Shown here: piece after piece, positions 2,716-22,840 of the stretch
Layout: each line of letters opens with the position of its first letter
Numbering within the stretch: the stretch's first letter is position 1
Assembly: GCF_001895145.1 (NCBI RefSeq)
Contig: NZ_BDIR01000001.1
Location: 186,001 to 250,000, forward strand
Direction of reading: 5' to 3'
DNA length: 64,000 nt
Source: Arcobacter sp. LA11
Lineage (GTDB): Bacteria; Campylobacterota; Campylobacteria; Campylobacterales; Arcobacteraceae
Made by a program: the position numbers and the translations under genes
Notes under the pieces: model-generated
What the model saw: the letters and a program-made list of their open reading frames with translations, nothing else
The model's database searches: none
Told to the model about the DNA's origin: nothing

Positions 2716-2792
2716 GCGTCTGTGGCTCAACTGGATAGAGCACTGGGTTTCGGCCCCGGTGGTTGTGGGTTCGAATCCTACCAGGCGTGCCA
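2716..2792 (+). tRNA. tRNA-Arg, anticodon UCG
   Basis: A 77-nt cloverleaf can be folded by hand. The acceptor stem pairs GCGTCTG with CAGGCGT, the D stem is GCTC/GAGC, the anticodon stem is CTGGG/CCCGG around loop TTTCGGC (anticodon TCG), and the T stem is GTGGG/CCTAC with loop TTCGAAT. The discriminator is G and CCA is encoded. The last 19 bases of the gene lie inside the 21-bp repeat that bounds the mobile element, so this tRNA is the integration target and stays intact after insertion. Confidence 0.95.
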
Positions 2793-2794
2793 TT
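2774..2794 (+). repeat. attL, 21-bp direct repeat within the tRNA-Arg 3' end
   Basis: Begins AATCCTACCAGG and ends GTGCCATT. It is identical over 21 bases to 22820-22840. It spans the 3' half of the tRNA T arm, the acceptor strand and CCA plus two bases, the usual crossover region for integrases that use tRNA genes. Confidence 0.9.
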
Positions 2795-2860: not shown

Positions 2861-4075
2861 GTTAAGTGTCTACACTTTTCCAAAACATTCTCCAAAATTT
2901 TCATTTTTAACTGGAATATATTCAGAATATTTTTCTAATGTAACTTTAACATTTTCATGTCCCGCAATTTTGCTAACATATGTTATATCTTCGCCATTAG
3001 ATATTAATGTACTAATAAAAGTACCCCTTGTTTGGTGTAAATTTCTATAATTAACATTTGCAGACTCTAATATTTTAATCCAAATTTGTTCTCTAATTTT
3101 CCCAGCACTATGAAAATGCTTATTAGATTTTTTTGTTAAAAAAACGTAAGAATTTTGACTTCCAGTAATTTTATATTGATTTTCCAAATACGGAAGTAGT
3201 ATCTTTATGATAGGAATAATTCTTCTACTCTTAGTAGTTTTTAGAATATTTTTATGATTACCCTGAACAATTTGTTCTCTTACAGCAATAGTATTATTTT
3301 TAAAGTCTATTGATTCCCATTTTAAGCCTATTAATTCTGAAGCTCTTAATCCAGTAAAGAAAAATGTAGCTAACATATTTTTATCTTGATGTTGAGCAGT
3401 ATTAAGAATCTTACTAATTTCCTTTTGATTAAATGGTTTTAACTTAACTCTATTGACTTTTGGATTTTCTGTTTCTTTCAGTTTTTTAGCTTTTGAAATA
3501 GGATTAAACTTAATAATACTCTCTTCAATTGCATCTTCATACATGCTATTAATACAACTTCTTATTTTTAATATTGTAGCTTTAGCTAAATGTTCTTTTT
3601 CTTGAAGATTATTTTGCCAAATTGTAATCTCACTACTTGTGATTTTATCTAGCTGTTTATTTCCAAAAGGAGCTTTCAAATATTTCAGATAGTTTTTTTC
3701 ATGAGCATATATTGTAGATGAACATCTCCCTCCTTTTCTTAATTCGAAAGATCTCTCCATATACTCATTAACTGTTGGAATTTTACTGTTTGTGTTTTTA
3801 AAGAACTCACCACTTATAATTTTATATCGTAAAATTGGCATATATTGTGTCTCTGCAATTTTTCTATTTGCAGGTGTATCTTCAAGGTCTAAAGACTTTC
3901 TGTATCTTTTTCCATTGTGTGTGAAATTAACCCACAAAGTCTTTTTTATACCTTGCTTATTCTTTGATTCTTTTGTGTATAGTGTCATTGTGTTATCTCC
4001 TTTTTATTTGGTAACCACAAATCAACCATAAATACTTAATAATTATAGTTCATTTGTAGCTAAAAGACACTTAAC
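2861..4075. repeat. 11-bp inverted repeats flanking the integrase gene
   Basis: GTTAAGTGTCT at 2861-2871 recurs as its reverse complement at 4065-4075, on either side of int. A 12-bp direct copy of TTTCGGTGACGT also occurs at 2851-2862 and at 22705-22716 near attR. Placed near the ends and around int, these could be arm-type integrase or excisionase sites. That role is inferred from position only. Confidence 0.4.
2870..3988 (-). CDS. int: Tyrosine recombinase / integrase
   Basis: A 372-aa site-specific recombinase. Residues 65-160 form a SAM-like core-binding domain and residues 185-360 the catalytic domain. The visible catalytic set is R215 (TGLRASEL), H318 and R321 (HQTR), H344 (AGHEN) and Y354 (TLEKY). 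It would recombine the tRNA-Arg attachment site. The start at 3988 has AAGGAG. The gene lies 75 bp from the tRNA and ends close to attL, the standard arrangement for tRNA-integrating islands. The C-terminal codons overlap one of the 11-bp repeats. Confidence 0.92.
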   Translation of the reverse strand: MTLYTKESKNKQGIKKTLWVNFTHNGKRYRKSLDLEDTPANRKIAETQYMPILRYKIISGEFFKNTNSKIPTVNEYMERSFELRKGGRCSSTIYAHEKNYLKYLKAPFGNKQLDKITSSEITIWQNNLQEKEHLAKATILKIRSCINSMYEDAIEESIIKFNPISKAKKLKETENPKVNRVKLKPFNQKEISKILNTAQHQDKNMLATFFFTGLRASELIGLKWESIDFKNNTIAVREQIVQGNHKNILKTTKSRRIIPIIKILLPYLENQYKITGSQNSYVFLTKKSNKHFHSAGKIREQIWIKILESANVNYRNLHQTRGTFISTLISNGEDITYVSKIAGHENVKVTLEKYSEYIPVKNENFGECFGKV

Positions 4076-5320: not shown

Positions 5321-6484
5321 TTAAGCTACTAGTTGGCTTGGACTGTAATCTGTATTATTTAAGTTTGAAGGTTTATGTAGTAAAGAGTTTTTAAATAAAA
5401 TTAACTCTTTAACATCTTTTACTTTTCCATTTAATTTATTACTAGTAACTTCTTTTCTAATAAAGTCACCAACTTCGATATCAAATTTGTTTGCATAATA
5501 ATTTAATATTGGATGAGCATTATTGTTATAAATGAAATTAATATTTTCTAACTCTTTTATGATTTTTAAATGGTCAAAGTAAAGATTGTAATTTATGACA
5601 CAATCTTCTAGGTCTCTAGAAGTCATATTTGATAAATGTTCTTCACTTAGTATTTTTTTTCCCTCCTGAATGTAAGGAACATCAAGGTTGAATAAAACAT
5701 TAGGGTTACCTTTAAATTCGTCAAGTATTTCAAAAAAATCCTGGTTTCTAAATTCAATTTCTACTTGATTATAGATTTTAGAAAATTGTCTGATTTTTGG
5801 AATTTGATTAAAAAGAACACTATGATATCTTTCAATATCATAGACTTTATATGTAAATTTAAAATCAGTATCTCTCGCACCTTCTGAATTGTCATATTTT
5901 GGAATACCTGAGAACATCACCCCTTGAAGGAGTAAAAAAATAACACTTGTTCTAATGCCAAACTGATTGTTTTTTTGAAGTTGCATAAACTTTTCATTTA
6001 GTTCAAAATGAATTTGTTCATATTGTTCTAATCTAAGAATAAGCCCACCATATTTTTTAATGTACTTTGTTCTAATAATCTCTGAATATTCAGAGATTAA
6101 AGCTTCAGAGTTATTTCTAATATCATCATGTACTTGAACAAGACAAGGGTTAATATCATTTACTATGACTTTTTTAACACCACTTAGAATTAATGAATCC
6201 ATTAAAACTATTGTTGAATTCATTGCCCCGGCAAAGCCATCAATGAAAATGTCAAAACTTTTTCCAGTTTTTTCTATTTTCTCTAGATATAGTTTTTCAA
6301 AGATATAATTTAGTTCAACTTTCATTTTTTGTTTTGAACCAGGGTATTGGAAAACAACTCTCACCCCTTTATAAAACAAGTAAGAAAAGAAGATAAAAGT
6401 TTTTGTGAACTCTTCTTTAGATATTTGATTTTGTATTAATTTTTCTTCGAGGATTTGAATATCCTCTTTTAATAATTTTTTCAT
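5321..6484 (-). CDS. D12-class (Dam-like) DNA adenine methyltransferase, variant motif IV
   Basis: A 387-aa protein. The D12 hallmarks are visible in order: PGSK at 48-51, a SAM-binding IDGFAGA near 81-87, VNDINP near 109-113, and LDVPY at 267-271 in the motif IV position. Motif IV of N6-adenine methylases is normally DPPY; here a Val replaces the first Pro, which may weaken or alter catalysis. The AGGAG ribosome site supports the start. The gene is first in a leftward run leading through the ParB-like gene and xis-like gene to int. It could mark element DNA or protect against host restriction. Confidence 0.7.
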   Translation of the reverse strand: MKKLLKEDIQILEEKLIQNQISKEEFTKTFIFFSYLFYKGVRVVFQYPGSKQKMKVELNYIFEKLYLEKIEKTGKSFDIFIDGFAGAMNSTIVLMDSLILSGVKKVIVNDINPCLVQVHDDIRNNSEALISEYSEIIRTKYIKKYGGLILRLEQYEQIHFELNEKFMQLQKNNQFGIRTSVIFLLLQGVMFSGIPKYDNSEGARDTDFKFTYKVYDIERYHSVLFNQIPKIRQFSKIYNQVEIEFRNQDFFEILDEFKGNPNVLFNLDVPYIQEGKKILSEEHLSNMTSRDLEDCVINYNLYFDHLKIIKELENINFIYNNNAHPILNYYANKFDIEVGDFIRKEVTSNKLNGKVKDVKELILFKNSLLHKPSNLNNTDYSPSQLVA

Positions 6485-9583: not shown

Positions 9584-10615
9584 CTAATTCAAATATAAAT
9601 TATTATACTCCTTATTTAAAATAGGCTCTTTCTTTTTTTCAATTAAAGAGTCCAAATATTCATTAGTTAAATTATCTCTTTTTAGTTCATTTTCAAAGAT
9701 TGTTTCAAAGTCAATTTCCTTCATAATCTCTTTTGAGGTATCAACAATTTTTTTTAAATGTTCTTTCATATTATTGGCATCTCTATCCCAAGATTTTAAA
9801 TATAGTTCTGAATTTTGAGTAATACCTATATGTTTAGAAACAATATAAGCAACACTTTCTCGTTCTCCCTCTTTTTGTGAAGTATCTAAATGTATCTTTT
9901 TATAATTATCTTGTCCGTGCATTAAATGGTGTCCTAACTCGTGGAATAGTGTTCCAACTTTTGAATTTAAAGACTTTTTAGAATTTGAGTTTATAACTAT
10001 ATGTTTATTACTAATTTGATAGTAACCTCCAAGTGATTCTTTGAGTTTTTTTTCTTCAATACTTACGTTAAATTTCTTTTTTACTTCTTCGTATAATTCT
10101 TGTAACATTTCTTTTGAAATTGTTGAGTATGGATTGCTATATGATAAAGGTTTTATTTTTTCTAACTCTTTGGCATTAGTTTGAGAAACATCAAACACTG
10201 GTACTAAAATAAATGATATATCAGTTTTGATTTTTTGATTATTATTGTCAAGGATATATTTATATCTTCCTTTACTATCTTTTATTGCTTTATTATTCTC
10301 ATCTCTTTGAACTTTATAGTTTTGTTTTGGAGCAAAGACTTTTAAAGCTTGTCGTCCTTTATTAACCTTTACTTCCATATTTTGCCATTGTTTAAAACTT
10401 GATACATAAGATAAGTCCATAGCTCTTAATTGAGCTTGTGAGTTTAATAACCAGATATTGTTAAATGAATAGTTGTTAAATCTTGCAACATTAGAGTAAA
10501 ACTCTTTTACTATCTCTTCTGTTTTAGGATTATCAAGTTTTTTAATTAATTCTTCTAAATCTTTTTCAATATTAAATTGTTTTGTATCTATTTGTTTATT
10601 TTCATTTTTTGACAT
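9584..10615 (-). CDS. ardC: ArdC-family antirestriction protein (ssDNA-binding domain plus zincin domain)
   Basis: A 343-aa protein. Residues 15-145 match the ArdC N-terminal ssDNA-binding domain (FNNYSFNNIWLL near 46-57, the SFKQWQ segment, then KGRQALKVFAP). Residues 165-260 are a metallopeptidase-like domain with HELGH at 225-229. ArdC proteins protect incoming single-stranded DNA from restriction during conjugation. It lies 10 bp downstream of the relaxase gene on the same strand, fitting expression on transfer. The start has AAAGGA. Confidence 0.88.
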   Translation of the reverse strand: MSKNENKQIDTKQFNIEKDLEELIKKLDNPKTEEIVKEFYSNVARFNNYSFNNIWLLNSQAQLRAMDLSYVSSFKQWQNMEVKVNKGRQALKVFAPKQNYKVQRDENNKAIKDSKGRYKYILDNNNQKIKTDISFILVPVFDVSQTNAKELEKIKPLSYSNPYSTISKEMLQELYEEVKKKFNVSIEEKKLKESLGGYYQISNKHIVINSNSKKSLNSKVGTLFHELGHHLMHGQDNYKKIHLDTSQKEGERESVAYIVSKHIGITQNSELYLKSWDRDANNMKEHLKKIVDTSKEIMKEIDFETIFENELKRDNLTNEYLDSLIEKKKEPILNKEYNNLYLN

Positions 10616-10625
10616 AGTTTTTCCT

Positions 10626-11963
10626 TTATTTTAAATTTTTTTGTTCATAACTTGGTGATTGTTTTAAAGCTTGTTTTTTAGTATTAATTTGGCTTTTTAC
10701 AAATTTTAAATAACTGTTATACAATTCAAGTTTATTTGATAGGATTTCTTCTTGTGAATACATTTTAAGTGAATTATTTGAAAGTAGATAGTTTTTTACA
10801 TTTATCTTTTCACTAAATAGTTTTTTGATTTTCTCTTGATTCTCTTTGTTTTCAAGTAGAAGGATTAACTCAACATCTAAGTTTCTTATTTGTCTATTAA
10901 TATTGTCTTGTTGGTATTTAAGATTTTCTTCTATTTGCCTTCTTTTATGTCTCTGTTCATTCTTCCAATAGTTCTTACTTCTTACAACAGAAGTTATAAA
11001 ACTCTCTTGATTGATTTCACCATTTTTTAACTTTTGATTTTGAAGCTTTTCAAAAAAGTTGTGTTCTTTGTTTGTATATAAAGTAAAGTCTTTTAATGAT
11101 TTAAAACAGTTATTTCTATAAGTTTTCATTTCCTTTACATAGTGAAATACAAAACTATTTTTGTACTCCTTTAAAGACTTTATGGAGTCATTTATAGTTT
11201 TTATATGTAATAGAGTATGAGATATTGATTTTTTAACTGAGGATATTTCTTTAAAGAGATTCTTTTTTTCTTTTAGAATATAATATTTTTGAGTTCTTGA
11301 AAAATTAAAACGACTCTTTTTATCTTCAAAGATTCCTCTTGATATTTGATATAGAGTATCTATTTCACTTTTTGCAATAATATGGTGTTTTTTGTTCTCA
11401 TAATAAGATTTTATTTTTTCTATTTTACTCTCTTTCATTTCATTGAAGGTTTTAACTCCTAACTTTTCCCTAGTTTCTTTTTTTGTAAAAAATTGAATAT
11501 AATTAGTCATTAAAGATTTTTTATAATTAACTTTAAAGGGCTTATCCGTAGGGATTTTATTGGAAACTACAAGATGATAATGTTCCATATTAATATTTTC
11601 ACCATACTCATTTTTTCTAGGTTTTTCTTCAATAGCTAATAAATAGTTTTTGTCTTTGAAGTCATTTTGAAGTTTAGAGATAAATCGCTCTCTTAGATTT
11701 AATTGTTCTTCTTTATCAAGCTTTTCCCACCGTGAAACTTTACAAGGACTTATGATGATGTGTTTTAAGCCAATTTCTTCTACTTTTCCCTTTTCAAATA
11801 ATTGTATTTTCCCCTCCTTGGATTCTGATTTAAGATAATTAATTAGTCCATACTTTTCTCTATCATAGTAGTGTTTATCTTCCTTTTGTTTATTTTGGAC
11901 AACTTTAACTATTGGTTGTAAAGATTCTTCATTAACAGACTTTTTATATTTAAATTTACTCAT
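10626..11963 (-). CDS. Relaxase / mobilization protein (HUH type, probably MOBP-like)
   Basis: A 445-aa protein. Residues 30-200 carry features of a relaxase: KHIIISP near 68-73 and H128-Y-H130-L-V-V-S-N135, matching the HxHxxxxN metal motif. Candidate nucleophile tyrosines are Y32, Y33 and Y38. Residues 220-440 are strongly charged and helical, probably coiled coil. A relaxase nicks oriT and leads the strand into the recipient. The start overlaps the upstream gene by 8 bp. The MOBP-like assignment leans on the RP4/R64-like nick sequence at 13328-13335. Confidence 0.75.
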   Translation of the reverse strand: MSKFKYKKSVNEESLQPIVKVVQNKQKEDKHYYDREKYGLINYLKSESKEGKIQLFEKGKVEEIGLKHIIISPCKVSRWEKLDKEEQLNLRERFISKLQNDFKDKNYLLAIEEKPRKNEYGENINMEHYHLVVSNKIPTDKPFKVNYKKSLMTNYIQFFTKKETREKLGVKTFNEMKESKIEKIKSYYENKKHHIIAKSEIDTLYQISRGIFEDKKSRFNFSRTQKYYILKEKKNLFKEISSVKKSISHTLLHIKTINDSIKSLKEYKNSFVFHYVKEMKTYRNNCFKSLKDFTLYTNKEHNFFEKLQNQKLKNGEINQESFITSVVRSKNYWKNEQRHKRRQIEENLKYQQDNINRQIRNLDVELILLLENKENQEKIKKLFSEKINVKNYLLSNNSLKMYSQEEILSNKLELYNSYLKFVKSQINTKKQALKQSPSYEQKNLK

Positions 11964-12429
11964 TTGAAGCCTTTAAAACATTTTGTAATTGTTTAACATA
12001 AGAAGCTAATAGAAAGATTTTCTCTTTGCTATTATTAGTTTTATTTACTTGTGTGATTAAGGAGTTAATAACTGGTGTATTTACAAGTTTAAATAGTTTT
12101 TTATAGTCATATTCAACTTCTCTTTTTAATCTTAATTCTTTATTGTTTTTTGCTTTTAAGTTATTGATATATACAGAGTAAGAAGAGATTTTCTTGATAG
12201 TATCTTGGTTTATATTTGATTTTGAAATATCATATTGACTGATTAATAAATAAAGTAAATTTTCAAACTCTCTTATTATATGTTTCTTTAATGGATCTTC
12301 TTCTTTTTTTGAATTAAAAATCTTATCTTTACAGTATGCCGTTAAAGTCATTTTAGAGTTACTTACTTTTATTTGCAAATCTTGATACTCTTTTTCTTCT
12401 AAATAGACTGATATTTTCTTTCTTTTCAT
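11956..12429 (-). CDS. MobC-like relaxosome accessory protein
   Basis: A 157-aa basic protein. The N-terminus (KRKKISVYLEEKEYQDLQIK) has a ribbon-helix-helix pattern, followed by SNSKMTLTAYCKDKIF, which resembles mobilisation MobC-type proteins that bind oriT and aid the relaxase. The rest is helical and Lys-rich. I place the start at ATG 12429, which has AAAGAG; an upstream in-frame ATG at 12471 would overlap the previous gene. The stop overlaps the relaxase start, suggesting translational coupling. Confidence 0.65.
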   Translation of the reverse strand: MKRKKISVYLEEKEYQDLQIKVSNSKMTLTAYCKDKIFNSKKEEDPLKKHIIREFENLLYLLISQYDISKSNINQDTIKKISSYSVYINNLKAKNNKELRLKREVEYDYKKLFKLVNTPVINSLITQVNKTNNSKEKIFLLASYVKQLQNVLKASNE

Positions 12430-12439
12430 AAAATACTCT

Positions 12440-12880
12440 TTATGATAGTGAAAAAAGAGATTCAACATCACTCATAATTGAAGAAGCTATTAGTTTTGAA
12501 TTTTCTTTTATATAGATTTTAAAATGTTTATAATCAAAACCATTTAACAGAGCAACTTTTTTAATTAAGTATTCTCTATCTCTATCATTAAATTCTTTTT
12601 GTTTGAACATTGTTTGAAGTCTTTCAATCTCACCTTTGTATTTTTCAATTTCTTCTTTTTCTAAGATATCAAGTATCTCTTTTTTTATTTCTTGTAACTT
12701 CTTTTGTCCTTGTTTAAACAAATAAGTTTTACTTACTTTTGAAACTGTTTTTAAAGCTTTATCTTTTAAGTTCTTTACTTCATTTAGCCTAGGTAAGAAC
12801 TCTTTTTTTTGATGTGAATCTAATTGATTATAAAGTTCTACTGTATTGAAGTATTCCTCTTTTAATATTTCATTTGTCAT
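12440..12880 (-). CDS. Hypothetical protein in the mobilization operon
   Basis: A 146-aa, Lys- and Glu-rich protein that I do not recognise. Residues 30-95 look like a long helix or coiled coil. No membrane segment, cysteine motif or signal peptide is seen. It starts at ATG 12880 with AAGGAG and overlaps the upstream gene by 11 bp, so it is part of the leftward run that ends in ardC. A role in the relaxosome is possible from context only. Confidence 0.55.
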   Translation of the reverse strand: MTNEILKEEYFNTVELYNQLDSHQKKEFLPRLNEVKNLKDKALKTVSKVSKTYLFKQGQKKLQEIKKEILDILEKEEIEKYKGEIERLQTMFKQKEFNDRDREYLIKKVALLNGFDYKHFKIYIKENSKLIASSIMSDVESLFSLS

Positions 12881-13431: not shown

Positions 13432-14844
13432 ATGAATAAAGATTTATTAAAAGAGTATTTAAAAGATGCAGGTTTTGATTACCATACAAAGAAATTAAAA
13501 CAAGCAGAGTATGCAAAGAATATTGTATTTAAAGGTAAGAATAGGACTTATACCCTTGAAGAAGTAAATGACTATAAACGTAAAACAAAACCACGTCTTG
13601 TAAATAATGAAAGTAGCTCAGTTCATAGACATATAATGGATAACCATAAATTAGCTATTTTTCAAATTCGAACAATAAACCCTAAATTTAATATACCTTC
13701 AAATGTTTTATCAGTTAAAGAGATTGATAGACATTTAAAATTACAGTATCAACAGTTTATGAACTATTTTGATTATATGAATAATTTTAAAATTGATGGT
13801 AATAGGTTGAATAAGCAATATGTGTGGATTTTAGAATTAAGTAAAGCATTAAATATCCATTCTAATTCTATTGATGTTCTAGAAAGTAAATCAGATTTAG
13901 AACACTACTTGAAAAGTATAATATATTCTAAAAATAAGAACAATATTGGAAAAATTCAACTTATTATTACAGAATATACTTTGAAGCATTTAGAAAGACT
14001 ATTTAAAGATTTAAAAATAAGAGTTAAAAATAAATATATACAATTATCTCTAAAAAAAATTGGAGAAAAGTTCTATATAAAAGGAATGGGAGGTAAAGTT
14101 GAAGAAGGAATTTATTTTAAACTACTTACAAAAGAGAAAAACTCAAAGCTAAAACTAATAAAGTATTTTTATAAAAATATATTGAAAGAACGCAAACAAA
14201 AGCCTACAAAGGAACATTTTATTTTTGGAAGGTTGGGTTTTAGGATTAAGCAATTTAGTAAAGACTTTTTTAATCGAAAAGTTAAAAAGTATATTTTATA
14301 TAGAACTAATAATAAGCTATTCTCTATGATTAAGAATAAAAATAAAGATATTCAATTAACTCCAAGTATAAAAGATTTAAAAACATTTCTTTTTTATAGT
14401 GCTTCACTTTTTAGGAAACAATTTTTAAGATATGAAAATTATGAGAATATGAAGTTTGTATATTATTTGAAGAATAAGAAGTTTGATACAAAATGGGTTG
14501 AGATAGTTAATCTAAATACCTATGAAAAAGGAGGTTTTTTGGAGAGTTTTTCAAGTAATGGAGATATTTATAGGGAAGAAGATTTTTTAGGTAAATACGA
14601 TAGAAATATTAAACAGTTTTTTAAAGAATTAACAATTAAAAATATATTAACAAGAGATTCTTTTCTTGAAAACTATAAATCAAAAGAGTTTTATATGAAA
14701 AGATTAATCTCAAAATTATGGGTAGGGTACTTGGAGTACTTACATTATTGCGTCAGAAGAATCGGACTTAATGAATATATGGAAGAGTTAATTAGAAATA
14801 AATGTAGACTTTCAATAAGAGTAGATATTTTTGAGAATTTTTAA
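13432..14844 (+). CDS. Hypothetical basic protein (possible element replication or maintenance)
   Basis: A 470-aa, very Lys-rich protein that I do not recognise. It has no membrane segment, signal peptide or cysteine motif, and the basic charge suggests nucleic-acid binding. I prefer ATG 13432, preceded by GGAAA, because a TATAAT at 13391-13396 would put the transcript start near 13403, leaving almost no leader for ATG 13411. It is divergent from the mobilization operon across the oriT candidate. It could be a replication initiator, but nothing in the sequence proves this. Its stop overlaps the convergent nuclease gene by 4 bp. Confidence 0.55.
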   Translation: MNKDLLKEYLKDAGFDYHTKKLKQAEYAKNIVFKGKNRTYTLEEVNDYKRKTKPRLVNNESSSVHRHIMDNHKLAIFQIRTINPKFNIPSNVLSVKEIDRHLKLQYQQFMNYFDYMNNFKIDGNRLNKQYVWILELSKALNIHSNSIDVLESKSDLEHYLKSIIYSKNKNNIGKIQLIITEYTLKHLERLFKDLKIRVKNKYIQLSLKKIGEKFYIKGMGGKVEEGIYFKLLTKEKNSKLKLIKYFYKNILKERKQKPTKEHFIFGRLGFRIKQFSKDFFNRKVKKYILYRTNNKLFSMIKNKNKDIQLTPSIKDLKTFLFYSASLFRKQFLRYENYENMKFVYYLKNKKFDTKWVEIVNLNTYEKGGFLESFSSNGDIYREEDFLGKYDRNIKQFFKELTIKNILTRDSFLENYKSKEFYMKRLISKLWVGYLEYLHYCVRRIGLNEYMEELIRNKCRLSIRVDIFENF

Positions 14845-15611
14845 GTGTAAAGTTTGAGTTCTATTCCAATTGGACAATGATCTGAACCTTCAATCTCATC
14901 TAAAATAAATGCATTTAATAATGAATCTTTTAAATCTTCAGAAATGAATATATAATCAATTCTCCATCCTTCATTTTTTTCTCGTCCTTTTGAGCGATAT
15001 GACCACCAAGTATAAGCTTCATTTTTTTCTCCATGTATATATCTATATGTATCTATATATCCTTTCTTTACAAATTTATCCATACAAAAACGTTCTTTAT
15101 CTGAAAAACCTGACTTATCATATATCTTACTTTTTTTTAAATCAATATCTCTATGTGCAATATTGAAGTCTCCACAAATTATAATAGATTTGCCTTCTTT
15201 CCTAAGTTTTTCACAATATTTGTAAAATTTATTAAAAAATTTTATTTTAAAGTTTAATCTAGTTTTAGAAGTTTTACCATTAGGGAAATATACATTAAAG
15301 ATAATAATGTCATTATAATGATGTTCAATTATTCTACCCTCAGAATTTGAATCAACAAATTCACAAAAGTTAGAGTTAGAGAGAGGTATATTAGAGTATG
15401 TCAATGTTCCTGATAAGCCTTTATTTTTACCACTATTGACAATTGAAAAAGTGTAACCCTTATTTATATTACTAGGTACCTCTTTCTCTATTGCTTTTAT
15501 TTCTTGAAAACATAAAATATCTGGCTTTATGTATTCTATCCATTCAAGAACATTTTTTTTTGATAAGGCTCGAATTCCATTGACATTCCAAGAATAAATT
15601 TTTATAGACAT
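14841..15611 (-). CDS. xth: Exodeoxyribonuclease III-like AP endonuclease
   Basis: A 256-aa protein with the full ExoIII/EEP set in order: WNVNGIRA (8-15), FQEIKA near 35-40, GDFNIAHRDID near 146-156, RIDYIF near 218-223 and GSDHCPI near 243-249. These supply the Asn, Glu, Asp and His residues for metal-dependent cleavage at abasic sites. The length is normal (about 250-270). Because it lies within a mobile element it is probably an extra copy. It is convergent with the basic protein gene and overlaps it by 4 bp. Confidence 0.88.
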   Translation of the reverse strand: MSIKIYSWNVNGIRALSKKNVLEWIEYIKPDILCFQEIKAIEKEVPSNINKGYTFSIVNSGKNKGLSGTLTYSNIPLSNSNFCEFVDSNSEGRIIEHHYNDIIIFNVYFPNGKTSKTRLNFKIKFFNKFYKYCEKLRKEGKSIIICGDFNIAHRDIDLKKSKIYDKSGFSDKERFCMDKFVKKGYIDTYRYIHGEKNEAYTWWSYRSKGREKNEGWRIDYIFISEDLKDSLLNAFILDEIEGSDHCPIGIELKLYT

Positions 15612-15877: not shown

Positions 15878-16762
15878 ATGGTAAAAAAAGAAAATAAAAA
15901 AACAAATGAAGAAGTTGAAGAAAAACCAGTAGACCCAAGGAATAAACTAAATGAATTAAATGGGAAAGCATGGATGCCTGAAACAAAAAGTTTTGTTTAT
16001 CAAAAAGGATTAGGTTCAAAACATCCTCATGCACAAATAGAAAAACAGCATCCTGCTCCATTTTCTTATCAAGATATTGAGAAATTGATTAATTTTTTCA
16101 CGAAATCAAATGATATTGTATTAGACCCATTTTCTGGGGTAGGATCTACAATTAAAGCAGCAGCTTTAAATAATAGAAAAGGTGTAGGGATTGAATTATC
16201 TGAACATTGGAACAATTTAGCAAAAGAAAGAATAGAGTTTGAAGTAGGAGAAGGTGAATCTAAAAATCACACTTTTATAAATAATGATTGTAGAAAAGCA
16301 TTAGATGAAATAAAGAAAGAAAGTATTGATTTTGTAGTTACAAGTCCTCCTTATTGGTCTATTTTAAATAAAAAAGCTGATCATAAAGTTAAAACAAGAG
16401 TTGAGAATGATTTGAAAACCAACTATTCTGACGATGATGATGATCTGGGGAATATTGAAGAATACAACAAGTTTTTAGATATATTAGTAAAAGATGTAAT
16501 TTTAAAATGTGGTAGAGCGCTAAAAGAAAAGAAATATTTGTGTTTAGTTGTGTCAGATTTTAGGAATAAATCTGAATATATAAGTTTTCATAGTGATTTA
16601 ATACAAAGAGTAAATAATTTAAAAATAGGTAAATATAAATTTTCATTACAAGGTGTTAAAGCTTTGTTACAAAATCATAAATCTCTAATGCCTTATGGTT
16701 ATCCTTATGCATATGTAGAGAATATCCATCATCAATATATATTAATCTTTAGAAAAGTCTAA
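15878..16762 (+). CDS. DNA methyltransferase, SPPY type (modification enzyme 1)
   Basis: A 294-aa protein. Motif I is LDPFSGVGST (82-91) and motif IV TSPPYW (155-160), so motif I precedes IV. SPPY is typical of N4-cytosine and some N6-adenine methylases. A Lys/Glu-rich region forms the first 20 residues. It is followed 3 bp later by a second methylase with the opposite motif order, and is convergent with a putative endonuclease pair. Two methylases with one nuclease fits a type IIS system, in which each strand of an asymmetric site needs its own enzyme. The 266-bp upstream gap shows nothing else. Confidence 0.85.
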   Translation: MVKKENKKTNEEVEEKPVDPRNKLNELNGKAWMPETKSFVYQKGLGSKHPHAQIEKQHPAPFSYQDIEKLINFFTKSNDIVLDPFSGVGSTIKAAALNNRKGVGIELSEHWNNLAKERIEFEVGEGESKNHTFINNDCRKALDEIKKESIDFVVTSPPYWSILNKKADHKVKTRVENDLKTNYSDDDDDLGNIEEYNKFLDILVKDVILKCGRALKEKKYLCLVVSDFRNKSEYISFHSDLIQRVNNLKIGKYKFSLQGVKALLQNHKSLMPYGYPYAYVENIHHQYILIFRKV

Positions 16763-16765
16763 AAT

Positions 16766-17587
16766 ATGATTGAATTCAATAAGAGTTATCAAGCAAATTG
16801 TGATATTTTTTTAAAAGATTTGATAAAAGAAAATATTAAATTTGATTTAGTGCTTACTGATCCACCTTATAATTTAAAAAAAGACTTTGGGAATAATAGT
16901 GATAATTTGACTCTTGATGAATTTATCTCTGTAAGTGAAGAACGAATTTCGGACTTAAAAAAGTTATTGTCAAAGAATGGAAGTGTTATATGGTTTGGTA
17001 TACATCATTTTATTGGTTTTATTCAAACAATAATGTATAAAGAGGGCTTACATTACCGTAGAATGAACATATGGTTTTATGAGAATGGATTTTCAAGAAG
17101 TAAGAAAACTCTTCAAACTCAGTATGAACCATTTTTATGGTTTTCAGAAAATGATAAAAAATGGGTTTATAATGTTGATGATGTAAGAGTCCCTTATAAA
17201 AGTAAAGATAGATTAAAAAACCCAGTTTATTATAAAGACTCAAAAGGGAATAAGAAAAAATGGGAGCCCAATCCAAATGGAGCGATGAGAGGTGATGTAT
17301 GGCAGTTCCCCACATTATCAGGTTCATTATATAAAAATGAAAGAACAAGCCATCCTACTCAAAAACCTGAATCGTTGATAACAGAAATAATAAAAGCATT
17401 TTGTCCTAAGAATGATGAGGGTTTTTATGAAGGAACAATTTTAGACCCCTTCCATGGATCAGGAACATTAGGTGTATGTTGTGAAAAATTGAATAATGAA
17501 GGGCATAAAATTAAATGGCTTGGCATAGAATTAGAAAAGAAATGGAATGATATTGGTATTCAAAGATTATCAGAAGTAAATAAGTAG
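16766..17587 (+). CDS. DNA methyltransferase, beta class, DPPY type (modification enzyme 2)
   Basis: A 273-aa protein. Motif IV is DPPY at 32-35 and motif I LDPFHGSGT near residue 228, with the target-recognition region between them, the beta-class order. SHPTQKP is visible near residue 193. DPPY favours N6-adenine. The start codon lies 3 bp past the stop of methylase 1, so they are translationally coupled. It shares a terminator hairpin with the convergent ferredoxin-nuclease gene. Confidence 0.87.
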   Translation: MIEFNKSYQANCDIFLKDLIKENIKFDLVLTDPPYNLKKDFGNNSDNLTLDEFISVSEERISDLKKLLSKNGSVIWFGIHHFIGFIQTIMYKEGLHYRRMNIWFYENGFSRSKKTLQTQYEPFLWFSENDKKWVYNVDDVRVPYKSKDRLKNPVYYKDSKGNKKKWEPNPNGAMRGDVWQFPTLSGSLYKNERTSHPTQKPESLITEIIKAFCPKNDEGFYEGTILDPFHGSGTLGVCCEKLNNEGHKIKWLGIELEKKWNDIGIQRLSEVNK

Positions 17588-17600
17588 TTATCTACTTATT
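17579..17600. terminator. Shared hairpin at the ends of convergent restriction-locus genes
   Basis: A perfect 9-bp stem AATAAGTAG/CTACTTATT with loop TTAT. Both stop codons lie in its arms: the methylase ends at 17587 and the opposite gene at 17592. It probably ends or stabilises both transcripts. The T tract is weak. Confidence 0.6.
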
Positions 17601-18665
17601 CGCTTCTAAAATATTTAATTCTCCTTCACTTATTGAGCAAGTGTTATCTAAAACTTTTTCCAGTGAACTTCGGATTGAGTATGAACTATAATCTGTATAA
17701 AATTCTTTTATTTTTTCTATATCAAGTTTTTTTCTATTCCATAATATAATTAATAATGCACCTAGTGTGATTGAATAAACTTTATATTCTGTTACTTCTT
17801 TTATATCTGCAATTACATTCCAATATTCTGAACGTTTATTTGGCAAAGAATAACTAATAATTAAAGGACATAAATCTTCTTTTTTTGTATTATATCTTGA
17901 ATGTAGTACCGCAATATTATCCAAAATATTTCTTGGAGAATTTAGGATGTCATTCCCAAATTCGACTTCAGAAACGCCAACTGTTGATTTATCTGAGAAT
18001 AATAAATCCATTCTAATATTAACATCTCCTCTTCTACGTATTACACTTTCCATTCCAAGTATAATTAATAGGTTTCTACTAATTAAATTTGGAAACTGTA
18101 GAGATAGTTTTGAATTAATTTCATTGATTTTTGAATATACATTTTGTAAATGACCATCTAAAACTTCATTTATATAATTATCTCTATCTACTGAATTAAA
18201 ATGTTCTTGAATCTCATTAAAAGTTTCTTTATCATATTCTACTTCCTCATAATGTTCTGATTCAAATGAATTTACTTCTGCAATATTAAGTTCATTAAAA
18301 GAAATAGCCCCAAAATCGCATCTTTCTATACATAAGGCACAGGAAATACATAAATCTGAGTTAATACTTGGAGAAGAATCTTCTATTGACCAAGTTATTG
18401 CTTGAGAAGGACAAACAGAGTGTTCTAAATCAGATGGAAATTCATTTATGATATCAAAGTTAAGTTCTTCTTTTGAAAAGTGCATACATTTTGGTTCTTT
18501 ACAGCTAAAACAATTTGAATATATAACTTTTTCTGAATCTTTAATTGAATAAAACGGTCTCCCTTGATCATCATATTTAATAGCTGTTATATTTTGATAA
18601 TTTTTTAATAAATAATTGCTATTTCTTGTTTTTTGTTTATAAAGTGTTAATTGATAGGTATCCAT
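17592..18665 (-). CDS. Ferredoxin-domain protein with degenerate PD-(D/E)XK-like domain
   Basis: A 357-aa protein of unusual build. Residues 50-120 hold eight cysteines in ferredoxin-like spacing: C52, C55, C60 and C85, then C106, C109, C112 and C116 (CISCALCIERC), enough for two [4Fe-4S] clusters. Residues 200-330 resemble the C-terminal domain of the upstream endonuclease: D220 and E233-V-E235 stand where that protein has D450 and E463-I-K465, and SLPNKRSE (273-280) matches LLPNNRSE. The catalytic Lys is thus a Glu. ATG 18665 has GGAG at a 7-nt spacing and is preferred to 18704. It overlaps the endonuclease gene by 29 bp. A redox-sensing subunit or partner of the nuclease is inferred. Confidence 0.65.
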   Translation of the reverse strand: MDTYQLTLYKQKTRNSNYLLKNYQNITAIKYDDQGRPFYSIKDSEKVIYSNCFSCKEPKCMHFSKEELNFDIINEFPSDLEHSVCPSQAITWSIEDSSPSINSDLCISCALCIERCDFGAISFNELNIAEVNSFESEHYEEVEYDKETFNEIQEHFNSVDRDNYINEVLDGHLQNVYSKINEINSKLSLQFPNLISRNLLIILGMESVIRRRGDVNIRMDLLFSDKSTVGVSEVEFGNDILNSPRNILDNIAVLHSRYNTKKEDLCPLIISYSLPNKRSEYWNVIADIKEVTEYKVYSITLGALLIILWNRKKLDIEKIKEFYTDYSSYSIRSSLEKVLDNTCSISEGELNILEANK

Positions 18666-20349
18666 GTAAGTTCTCCAGTTTTTGTTTTTCAAATTTTTCT
18701 TCACTTATATGATTTAAAATACATAGTTTTAATAAGGTATGGAAATCAATGATACCAATTTTAAAATGGAATGTTTTATAGATATCATTTATTAAGCTTT
18801 CCACCTCTGAACGATTGTTTGGAAGTAAATATCCTACTACAAGAGATGTTGTTTCCTTTGTACTTGTATATTGTTTTCTTGATGATAATATAATTTTGTT
18901 TTCTAATGCTTGTCTTACTGCTTTAGTTGAAATATTATGTTCTTCACCAGGTGATTTTATTTCTATAGGAATAGAATACTTTTCATCATCAATAGTTGCA
19001 TCAAATCTATTTGAATTTACTCCAGGTTGAGAATTAAAACAATTAAAATCCAAACTTTTGAATAGTCCAGCAATTAAAGGATAAAACTCACTTTGATTAG
19101 ATTTTACAAAACTTTCCAATTTATTACTAATAATACTATCTAAATTTTTTCCCTTATCTAATTCCTCCATTAACTCATTCAATAAATCTATTTCAAATCT
19201 GTTTTGATTCTTGTTACTATTAGAGCTAAAGGAAATTATTTCTCCTAGCTGTAAGCCTTCGTGAGTTGTTTTTATAGCTGGCTTATCTCCTTCCTTTTCT
19301 TCTTGATTCTTAGGGAGTAGCGATGGAAAGTATTTAGTTAGTATCTTTGATGAAAATTCTTGATAAGGTGAAAATACTAGGTTGTCCTCTATACTTTTTT
19401 CAATTTTTTGTACTTCTCTTAAATCTTTTTCTTTAAGTTCCATTGCTTCTGTATTTAGTATGAAATTACTTCTTTCTAACATTTGATAAAAAGCAAGGCG
19501 AATAATATTTTCTTTACACGTAGCATATTTACTATCTATGTCAGTTTCTCTAATATCTATATATGAAGTTATTTTATTTACATAAGTTTCACCAAAATCT
19601 GTTAAGTAATAGTATTGAACAGATCTTCCATAGTGGTTTTTTGTAGATTTTTTTTCTGCCCAATCTGTCCATAATAAAGCTGCATTTGGAAATCTTGTAT
19701 TATTGCTTCTAGTAGCTTTACTTAAAACTTTGTCTGTACTTCCCTTTACTTTAGATAAGTTTGATTGAAGATTAGAAAAACTTTTTGTTCTTAAATCTTT
19801 TATATACTCTATCATTTTATTGAAATTTTCTTCATTATCAGGATTTAAAGATAAAGGGCCTAGAATCATCTCATCTCTTGAGATATATCCTCCTAGTTTT
19901 TTCATAGTTTTAAGAATTGTAAAAAACGGACGTAATCTATACCCTCCAAGTACATTTAATACCTTATTTGGGTATACAACCCCAATTAAACATTCTCTCA
20001 TAAAAGGTTTTGGATTATCCCCAATTAGGCTACAGTGAGCACCTAGATATGTAAATTGGAATTTTAGACTTTCCCCTTCTATTGAATGTATCCAGCCTAA
20101 AAACCTATATATTTCAGAATACATTTTTGACTGATTATATAATGGATCTTTTGTTCTATCATCTCTAGTTGATCTTCTTAATGCTTCAGCACCCATGTAG
20201 CCACTTGACGTAGCAAGATTCTTAGATGTAAGTATCATTGAAATGTCATCTAAAGTAAATGGTTGAAGGCTATAAAGTTCGGCGTAAAGTTCTTTAAATA
20301 TATTGATTAAATTATTAAAGTCTGAACCAGGATTTGGTAATCTTAACAT
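18637..20349 (-). CDS. Putative type II (AlwI-like) restriction endonuclease
   Basis: A 570-aa protein. The middle contains segments that look like DNA-recognition winged helices (GGYRLRPFFTILKTMKKLGG near 135-155). The C-terminal third has a PD-(D/E)XK core: D450, then E463-I-K465 (IPIEIKSPGEE), followed by a conserved LLPNNRSE. Separate recognition and cleavage domains plus two adjacent methylases point to a type IIS enzyme; AlwI-like is a guess from overall form. The AAAGG start is clear. The gene overlaps the ferredoxin-nuclease gene by 29 bp, so both are made together. Confidence 0.7.
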   Translation of the reverse strand: MLRLPNPGSDFNNLINIFKELYAELYSLQPFTLDDISMILTSKNLATSSGYMGAEALRRSTRDDRTKDPLYNQSKMYSEIYRFLGWIHSIEGESLKFQFTYLGAHCSLIGDNPKPFMRECLIGVVYPNKVLNVLGGYRLRPFFTILKTMKKLGGYISRDEMILGPLSLNPDNEENFNKMIEYIKDLRTKSFSNLQSNLSKVKGSTDKVLSKATRSNNTRFPNAALLWTDWAEKKSTKNHYGRSVQYYYLTDFGETYVNKITSYIDIRETDIDSKYATCKENIIRLAFYQMLERSNFILNTEAMELKEKDLREVQKIEKSIEDNLVFSPYQEFSSKILTKYFPSLLPKNQEEKEGDKPAIKTTHEGLQLGEIISFSSNSNKNQNRFEIDLLNELMEELDKGKNLDSIISNKLESFVKSNQSEFYPLIAGLFKSLDFNCFNSQPGVNSNRFDATIDDEKYSIPIEIKSPGEEHNISTKAVRQALENKIILSSRKQYTSTKETTSLVVGYLLPNNRSEVESLINDIYKTFHFKIGIIDFHTLLKLCILNHISEEKFEKQKLENLHGYLSINTL

Positions 20350-22473: not shown

Positions 22474-22819
22474 GTGTGTCATGTTATTCAATGTGATTTT
22501 TTTGTAACTGTTCCATATCTGTTCCAAAATTAACTATAAATTTAGGTTATATAATTTCAAGAAGTCTTTATTTATGGTTATATATAGTTATCTGTGGTAG
22601 TTTTGTTCGAATCCTACCCTGTATACCGTTCCACCACATTCGCATATTTAAAATAAGAGCATAATTTTTACTTTATTTATGAAAGTTATCTGCTTTAGTA
22701 AATGTTTCGGTGACGTATAGGTGCCATTTATTACTATTAATTAAGATTTTTAATATTTTCTAAAAACTTAAAAGTGTGTATTTATGGTATTAAGTGGTAT
22801 TTACTAGTTTGATTGATGA
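22474..22819. other. Right-end noncoding region with partial att-like sequence
   Basis: No gene is supported in this 346-bp stretch. At 22605-22618 GTTCGAATCCTACC repeats 14 bases of the tRNA-Arg T arm (2769-2782), and TTTCGGTGACGT at 22705-22716 repeats 2851-2862. These look like remnants of an earlier integration or recombinase-binding sites. The tRNA-like piece cannot fold into a tRNA. Confidence 0.5.
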
Positions 22820-22840
22820 AATCCTACCAGGCGTGCCATT
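22820..22840 (+). repeat. attR, 21-bp direct repeat
   Basis: A second copy of the tRNA-Arg 3' end with no tRNA body in front of it. It lies 40 bp from the end of nifQ and marks the right boundary of the element. The identity stops at 22819 and 22841. Confidence 0.9.

Follow-up and report, generated by a model that had tools for sequence, protein, structure and literature searches.

Type IIT restriction enzymes cleave inside or near an asymmetric recognition sequence, have their catalytic sites on two subunits or domains, and usually have one methyltransferase for each strand. The two sites differ from each other, and the usual number of methyltransferases is two (PMC4081073). In BsrDI, BtsI and BspD6I, the larger subunit recognizes the site and cuts one strand, and the smaller subunit cuts the other (PMC4081073). 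The BtsI system consists of two R subunits together with the methyltransferases M1 and M2 (PMC2909958).

Here we describe a locus of Arcobacter sp. LA11, within a stretch of 64,000 nucleotides (the window), that encodes two DNA methyltransferases (M1 and M2), a large subunit (R) and a small subunit containing a ferredoxin domain (the Fe-S subunit). The gene set, the homology of the proteins, their predicted folds, the conservation of cysteines and active sites, and the existence of ferredoxin-less sister systems were established computationally. We estimate a probability of roughly 0.78 that the locus is a restriction–modification system of the BspD6I/BtsI-like Type IIT with a cluster-bearing small subunit, an assignment that draws on predicted folds. 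A sequence-only reading of the same DNA had called it a restriction-type locus, which our results bear out, and had considered the layout not to be a standard type II one. The latter holds for the ferredoxin domain, but the set of two nucleases and two methylases is standard for Type IIT systems such as BtsI. What is non-standard here is the ferredoxin domain on a Type IIT small subunit; the layout itself is known. The open-licence literature searched yielded no restriction enzyme with a ferredoxin domain, although one may be annotated elsewhere.

Gene organization of the locus

M1 (15878–16762, forward strand) matches Pfam N6_N4_Mtase in two stretches in permuted order (E = 5.5e-25). M2 (16766–17587, forward strand) is a MboIIA-like methyltransferase, with matches in Pfam (E = 2.1e-46) and to MboIIA in the PDB (1g60, E = 2.6e-33). 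Both run toward the R/Fe-S subunit pair, and the stop codon of M2 lies 4 bp from that of the Fe-S subunit. On the reverse strand, R (18637–20349, 570 aa, an 18-member family, A4, also characterized by its predicted fold) lies upstream of the Fe-S subunit (17592–18665, 357 aa, a 17-member family, A3), the two ORFs overlapping by 29 bp at the end of R. Translation of the Fe-S subunit from an ATG at 18665, with GGAG ahead of it, gives the 357-aa protein, and an alternative GTG at 18704 gives a 370-aa ORF; from the sequence around the starts, the former is preferable. Residue numbers for this subunit refer to the 370-aa ORF unless stated otherwise.

The genes and coordinates given in the sequence-only reading agree with the ORF list, and the opposite motif orders that it described for the methylases are present: motif I (DPFSGVG) precedes SPPYW in M1, and DPPY precedes motif I (DPFHGSG) in M2. 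Judged by sequence, M1 is a probable N4-cytosine (or N6-adenine) methyltransferase, and M2 a probable N6-adenine methyltransferase. The two belong to different methylase classes in all complete loci. The convergence of the methylases with the nuclease pair, also noted earlier, is seen in the window and in many relatives, but not in L028, L029, L030, L032, L103 and L104, where the four genes are codirectional. In several relatives, M1 has an N-terminal HTH_17/MerR-type domain (Pfam E ~1e-13; L021 8623–9870, reverse strand; L104 1980–3092, forward strand), which may serve to autoregulate the system. The M1 of the window lacks this domain, and no hidden helix-turn-helix was seen by eye ahead of it.

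The locus is carried as cargo by an element of roughly 20 kb that is integrated in tRNA-Arg (window 2716–22840). The tRNA-Arg gene (2716–2792) lies at the left edge, where its 3′ end forms the first copy (2774–2794, forward strand) of a 21-bp exact attachment repeat, AATCCTACCAGGCGTGCCATT; the second copy marks the right edge (22820–22840, forward strand). The element encodes a tyrosine integrase (2870–3988, reverse strand; Pfam Phage_integrase, E = 5.8e-22), a NikA-like mobilization protein (11956–12471; below Pfam's cut-off), an HTH_17 protein, a ParB-like protein and an ArdC-like antirestriction protein, and is integrative and probably mobilizable. To the right of the element, the sequence is homologous to genus relatives from about 22881 onward. 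An empty integration site was not found in these relatives, in which the tRNA gene does not lie next to the right flank. A stretch resembling a tRNA 3′ end, gttcgaatcctacc, is present at 22606–22640, about 200 bp inside the right repeat, and may be left over from a previous integration. The element also contains an exonuclease III-like gene (14841–15611), 49% identical to the genus core copy, which is on another contig. A 387-aa protein (5321–6484) has, by eye, the look of a D12-type DNA adenine methylase (FQYPGSK, NLDVPY), with no Pfam match at E 0.01.

The ferredoxin domain of the small subunit

Residues 27–170 of the Fe-S subunit (18195–18626, reverse strand) form a ferredoxin-type domain. 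Its eight Cys residues (65, 68, 73, 98, 119, 122, 125 and 129) are spaced C-x2-C-x4-C-x24-C-P and C-x2-C-x2-C-x3-C, giving two Cys4 groups with CP..AI signatures. All eight are kept in 17/17 full-length Fe-S subunits, in which the mean column identity is 41%, and each of these proteins has a Pfam Fer4 match. Structure models of the two nuclease proteins were usable (mean pLDDT of 86.5 and 81.2). The predicted fold of residues 27–170 resembles WOR5 and HycB-type Fe-S subunits with Z of 5.7–6.9, values that are middling taken alone and agree with the cysteine pattern. In its two Cys4 groups, their spacing, its fold and its family, the domain corresponds to a two-cluster ferredoxin, and judging by sequence and model it most likely carries two [4Fe-4S] clusters.

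The conserved cysteines, the Fer4 matches and the fold support the earlier proposal of a ferredoxin–nuclease fusion with eight ferredoxin-spaced cysteines. Neither the sequence nor the predicted fold points to zinc or to a non-cluster fold, the outcome that the proposal had named as telling against it. Molybdenum, which had been listed with iron for analysis, has no basis in this subunit.

Nuclease domains and predicted folds

The C-terminal half of the Fe-S subunit contains a PD-(D/E)XK nuclease domain (residues 186–345; 17670–18149, reverse strand) that is homologous to the nuclease domain of R (residues 398–550; 18700–19158, reverse strand). The homology clearly exceeds chance and was detected by profile–profile comparison (hhalign, E = 1.2e-9, 140 columns), by phmmer within the genome (E = 8e-4), and by cross-family HMM searches (down to E = 6e-14). 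These comparisons confirm the kinship of the two domains that had been claimed from sequence, and together with the predicted folds they run counter to unrelated nuclease domains. D220, E233-V-E235 and SLPNKRSE of the Fe-S subunit (357-aa numbering; in the 370-aa ORF, the first two are D233 and E246-x-E248) correspond to D450, E463-I-K465 and LLPNNRSE of R in the alignment, and the D-x12-E spacing is identical in both. The alignment also upholds the previously noted Glu at the Lys position of the Fe-S subunit.

D450, E463 and K465 are kept in 18/18 R sequences. Among the small subunits, D233 and E246 are present in 20/20 and E248 in 19/20, the lone exception being a Lys in the Poribacteria subunit (L025 2903–3997; E-V-K for E-V-E). 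This subunit is a natural variant useful for the active-site question. Both R and the Fe-S subunit thus have the fold and residues of PD-(D/E)XK nucleases, with Lys in R and Glu, an accepted variant, in the Fe-S subunit. Active enzymes are known with Glu (BamHI) or Gln (BglII and NotI) at the Lys position (PMC4081073), and E113 of BamHI is a catalytic residue (PMC8845596). Because BamHI has Glu there, the substitution is, by analogy, no sign of a dead site, and from sequence and model the nuclease site of the Fe-S subunit is expected to be active. A different analogy is offered by BbvCI R1, of which the K169E variant is employed as an inactive subunit (PMC6326814); because this change abolishes activity, E-x-E could instead be a weak or dead site.

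The predicted fold of R resembles that of Nt.BspD6I along the whole protein (Z 16.8 across 384 residues, rmsd 8.8). Its N-terminal recognition region (residues 1–336; 19342–20349, reverse strand) is similar to the BpuJI DNA-binding domain (Z 13.3), and residues 386–570 are similar to ss.BspD6I (Z 12.0); R also aligns to FokI, with Z of 13.2 and a poor rmsd. Residues 186–352 of the Fe-S subunit are predicted to resemble the Nt.BspD6I cleavage domain (Z 11.9) and ss.BspD6I (Z 10.7, 155/186 residues). Structure prediction for both proteins, suggested as a check in the sequence-only reading, returned ferredoxin-type and nuclease folds with BspD6I-like matches. A viral structure library gave generic nuclease matches only. 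Neither R nor the Fe-S subunit gave a sequence match to BspD6I, or to another restriction enzyme of solved structure, when the PDB was searched with phmmer/hmmsearch at the limits used, and the link to BspD6I therefore rests on predicted folds.

As in Type IIT enzymes, sequence and predicted fold indicate two different catalytic sites (E-x-K on R, E-x-E on the Fe-S subunit), and two methyltransferases, M1 and M2, are found in all complete loci. The predicted structure of R is organized like that of a BspD6I-like large subunit, with a recognition region at the N-terminus and a PD-(D/E)XK domain at the C-terminus. The small subunit of such an enzyme consists of a nuclease domain only, which is not the case in the window but is the case in L102–L104, described below. 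The enzyme of the window would work in the BspD6I-like way, as a variant of it.

Distribution and ferredoxin-less sister systems

Relatives of R were found on one viral contig, on 11 genome contigs and on further viral contigs. The genome contigs belong to Anaerolineae, Leptolinea, Poribacteria, Oceanobacillus, Cytobacillus, Defluviitaleaceae, Thermosyntropha, Trinickia and Actinobacteria, and cover at least five phyla besides that of the window. Every related locus uncut by a contig end contains R, a small subunit, M1 and M2; the recurrence of the gene pair in other genomes, which had been proposed as a further check, extends to both methylases. The system occurs in at least six phyla, and its Fe-S subunits retain every cluster ligand. 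In L026 (Oceanobacillus massiliensis), M1 is split into two ORFs (9644–10923), perhaps by a frameshift or sequencing error.

A class-wide genome search found R in this genome only, out of 397, and no relatives of the Fe-S fusion beyond ordinary ferredoxins were found in 99 kin. Queries with R of the window and of its relatives revealed no relative of R in the plasmid and phage collections, and no relative of the Fe-S subunit was found in the plasmid collection. Neither R nor the nuclease domain was recognized by Pfam, NCBIfam, PADLOC or PHROGs. The methylases form two well-supported clades, with M2 about 65% and about 42% identical, respectively, to M2 of the window. From these sequences, the clades may represent two different recognition sites for one kind of system.

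The viral contigs L102, L103 and L104 encode R together with a small subunit of 214–215 aa without the ferredoxin domain, and L103 and L104 show M1 and M2 in full. The short subunit is clearly related to the Fe-S subunit (hhalign, E = 8.8e-35), and R of these sisters is also a clear relative of R in the window. Because the methylases of L103 and L104 sit in the well-supported clade of the window (M2 68% identical), the sequences suggest that these systems share a related or equal recognition site with it. The ferredoxin domain is dispensable for the existence of this kind of system and, on the same comparison, is probably not needed for specificity. It is a separable, optional module, since it occurs in both aerobes (Oceanobacillus, Cytobacillus and Trinickia) and anaerobes (Anaerolineae and Thermosyntropha) and is absent from sisters with close methylases.

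In the methylase trees, the ferredoxin-less forms are nested inside the clade of the window, which suggests loss of the ferredoxin domain; the R tree, in which they stand apart on a long branch, does not agree. To look for a docking site for the ferredoxin domain on R, we compared which otherwise conserved positions differ in the ferredoxin-less forms. Residues 62–76 change together in these forms, with clustering that is not significant (p = 0.16). The system is small and clonable, and because the sister lineage has related methylases without the ferredoxin domain, the part of the Fe-S cluster in DNA cutting can be compared directly. The question of whether a cluster serves structure, docking or redox control in a DNA-cutting enzyme thereby becomes addressable.

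Proposed mechanism and alternative explanations

For the division of the strands, the occupancy of the clusters and their role, we infer the following scheme. R would bind an asymmetric site through its N-terminal recognition region, and its C-terminal PD-(D/E)XK domain would cut one strand. The Fe-S subunit would dock onto R and DNA and cut the other strand with its D...E-x-E site, and each strand of the site would be protected by one of the two methylases, M1 and M2. Stabilized by its clusters, the ferredoxin domain would serve the small subunit in folding and docking. Second-strand cleavage would need an intact cluster, and an enzyme that had lost it would revert to a nickase. The docking role is a guess, to which we give about even odds.

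The clusters might instead act as sensors of oxygen, nitric oxide or iron starvation that switch second-strand cleavage on or off, which would link restriction to redox state as the sequence-only reading had suggested; we consider this possibility doubtful. Their complete signature, with eight Cys in all 17 subunits, and the similarity of the fold to electron-transfer subunits would suit a sensor, and the sisters show that the domain itself is not essential to the nuclease. However, the loci have only four genes in common, with no partner reductase or redox regulator conserved alongside, and their presence in aerobes and anaerobes shows no link to one lifestyle, which argues against a function tied to one lifestyle, not against a stress sensor. 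With such control, intact clusters would give breaks, whereas oxidative or nitrosative damage or iron starvation would give nicks only or stop cutting, and defence would be tied to the redox or iron state of the cell. That the state of the two clusters gates double-strand cutting, with a sister lineage free of this control, can be put forward only tentatively. An enzyme turned from a double-strand cutter into a nickase by its cluster state would be, to our knowledge, the first redox-controlled restriction enzyme.

We regard it as unlikely that the Fe-S subunit is catalytically inactive and, as a paralogue of the R nuclease domain, only aids R in binding DNA or dimerizing, with R cutting alone or the enzyme being a nickase. 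Glu in place of Lys in D...E-x-K would fit such a role, as would the inactivation of BbvCI R1 by K169E (PMC6326814), but BamHI, BglII and NotI remain active with Glu or Gln (PMC4081073), and conservation of the acidic triad across phyla, with D and E in 20/20, the second E in 19/20 and Lys as the sole alternative, is unexpected for a dead domain. Least probable is a structural zinc held by the cysteines, as in BslI, with a superficial resemblance to ferredoxin. Zn-Cys4 motifs do occur in the restriction enzymes BslI, PacI and DpnI (PMC4081073), but two complete Cys4 groups bearing CP..AI signatures, Fer4 matches in 17/17, no zinc family among the Pfam matches, and a predicted fold like that of WOR5, HycB and other Fe-S subunits all speak for clusters.

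Comparison with known systems

Read as a Type IIT system with a cluster-bearing small subunit, the locus has the complement of BtsI and BsrDI, namely M1, M2, an R that in those enzymes nicks alone, and a small subunit that completes the cut (PMC2909958, PMC4081073). No Fe-S domain is described for their small subunit, which sets them apart by description, not by sequence comparison. BspD6I, a Type IIT/IIS heterodimer, likewise pairs a large subunit for recognition and cutting with a smaller nuclease subunit, and the predicted folds of both match; it differs in that ss.BspD6I (186 aa) has no ferredoxin domain, and its sequence similarity to the window subunits is undetected. The N-terminal 336 residues of R resemble the recognition domain of BpuJI, and R aligns to FokI, but we know of no second, different nuclease subunit paired with either enzyme.

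The ferredoxin domain is like HycB and the WOR5 small subunit in fold over residues 27–170 and, as with the DmsB-type dicluster ferredoxins, in its C-x2-C-x4-C and C-x2-C-x2-C-x3-C spacing. It differs from all of these in the ~24 residues that separate Cys 3 from Cys 4 in the first group, and in being fused to a nuclease, whereas they belong to redox complexes. Cas4, AddB and Dna2 likewise combine an Fe-S cluster with a PD-(D/E)XK nuclease domain in one protein. In these proteins, four Cys in the nuclease domain hold one cluster, whereas the Fe-S subunit has eight Cys in a separate N-terminal ferredoxin domain, all at positions 65–129, and a nuclease domain (186–345) without conserved Cys.
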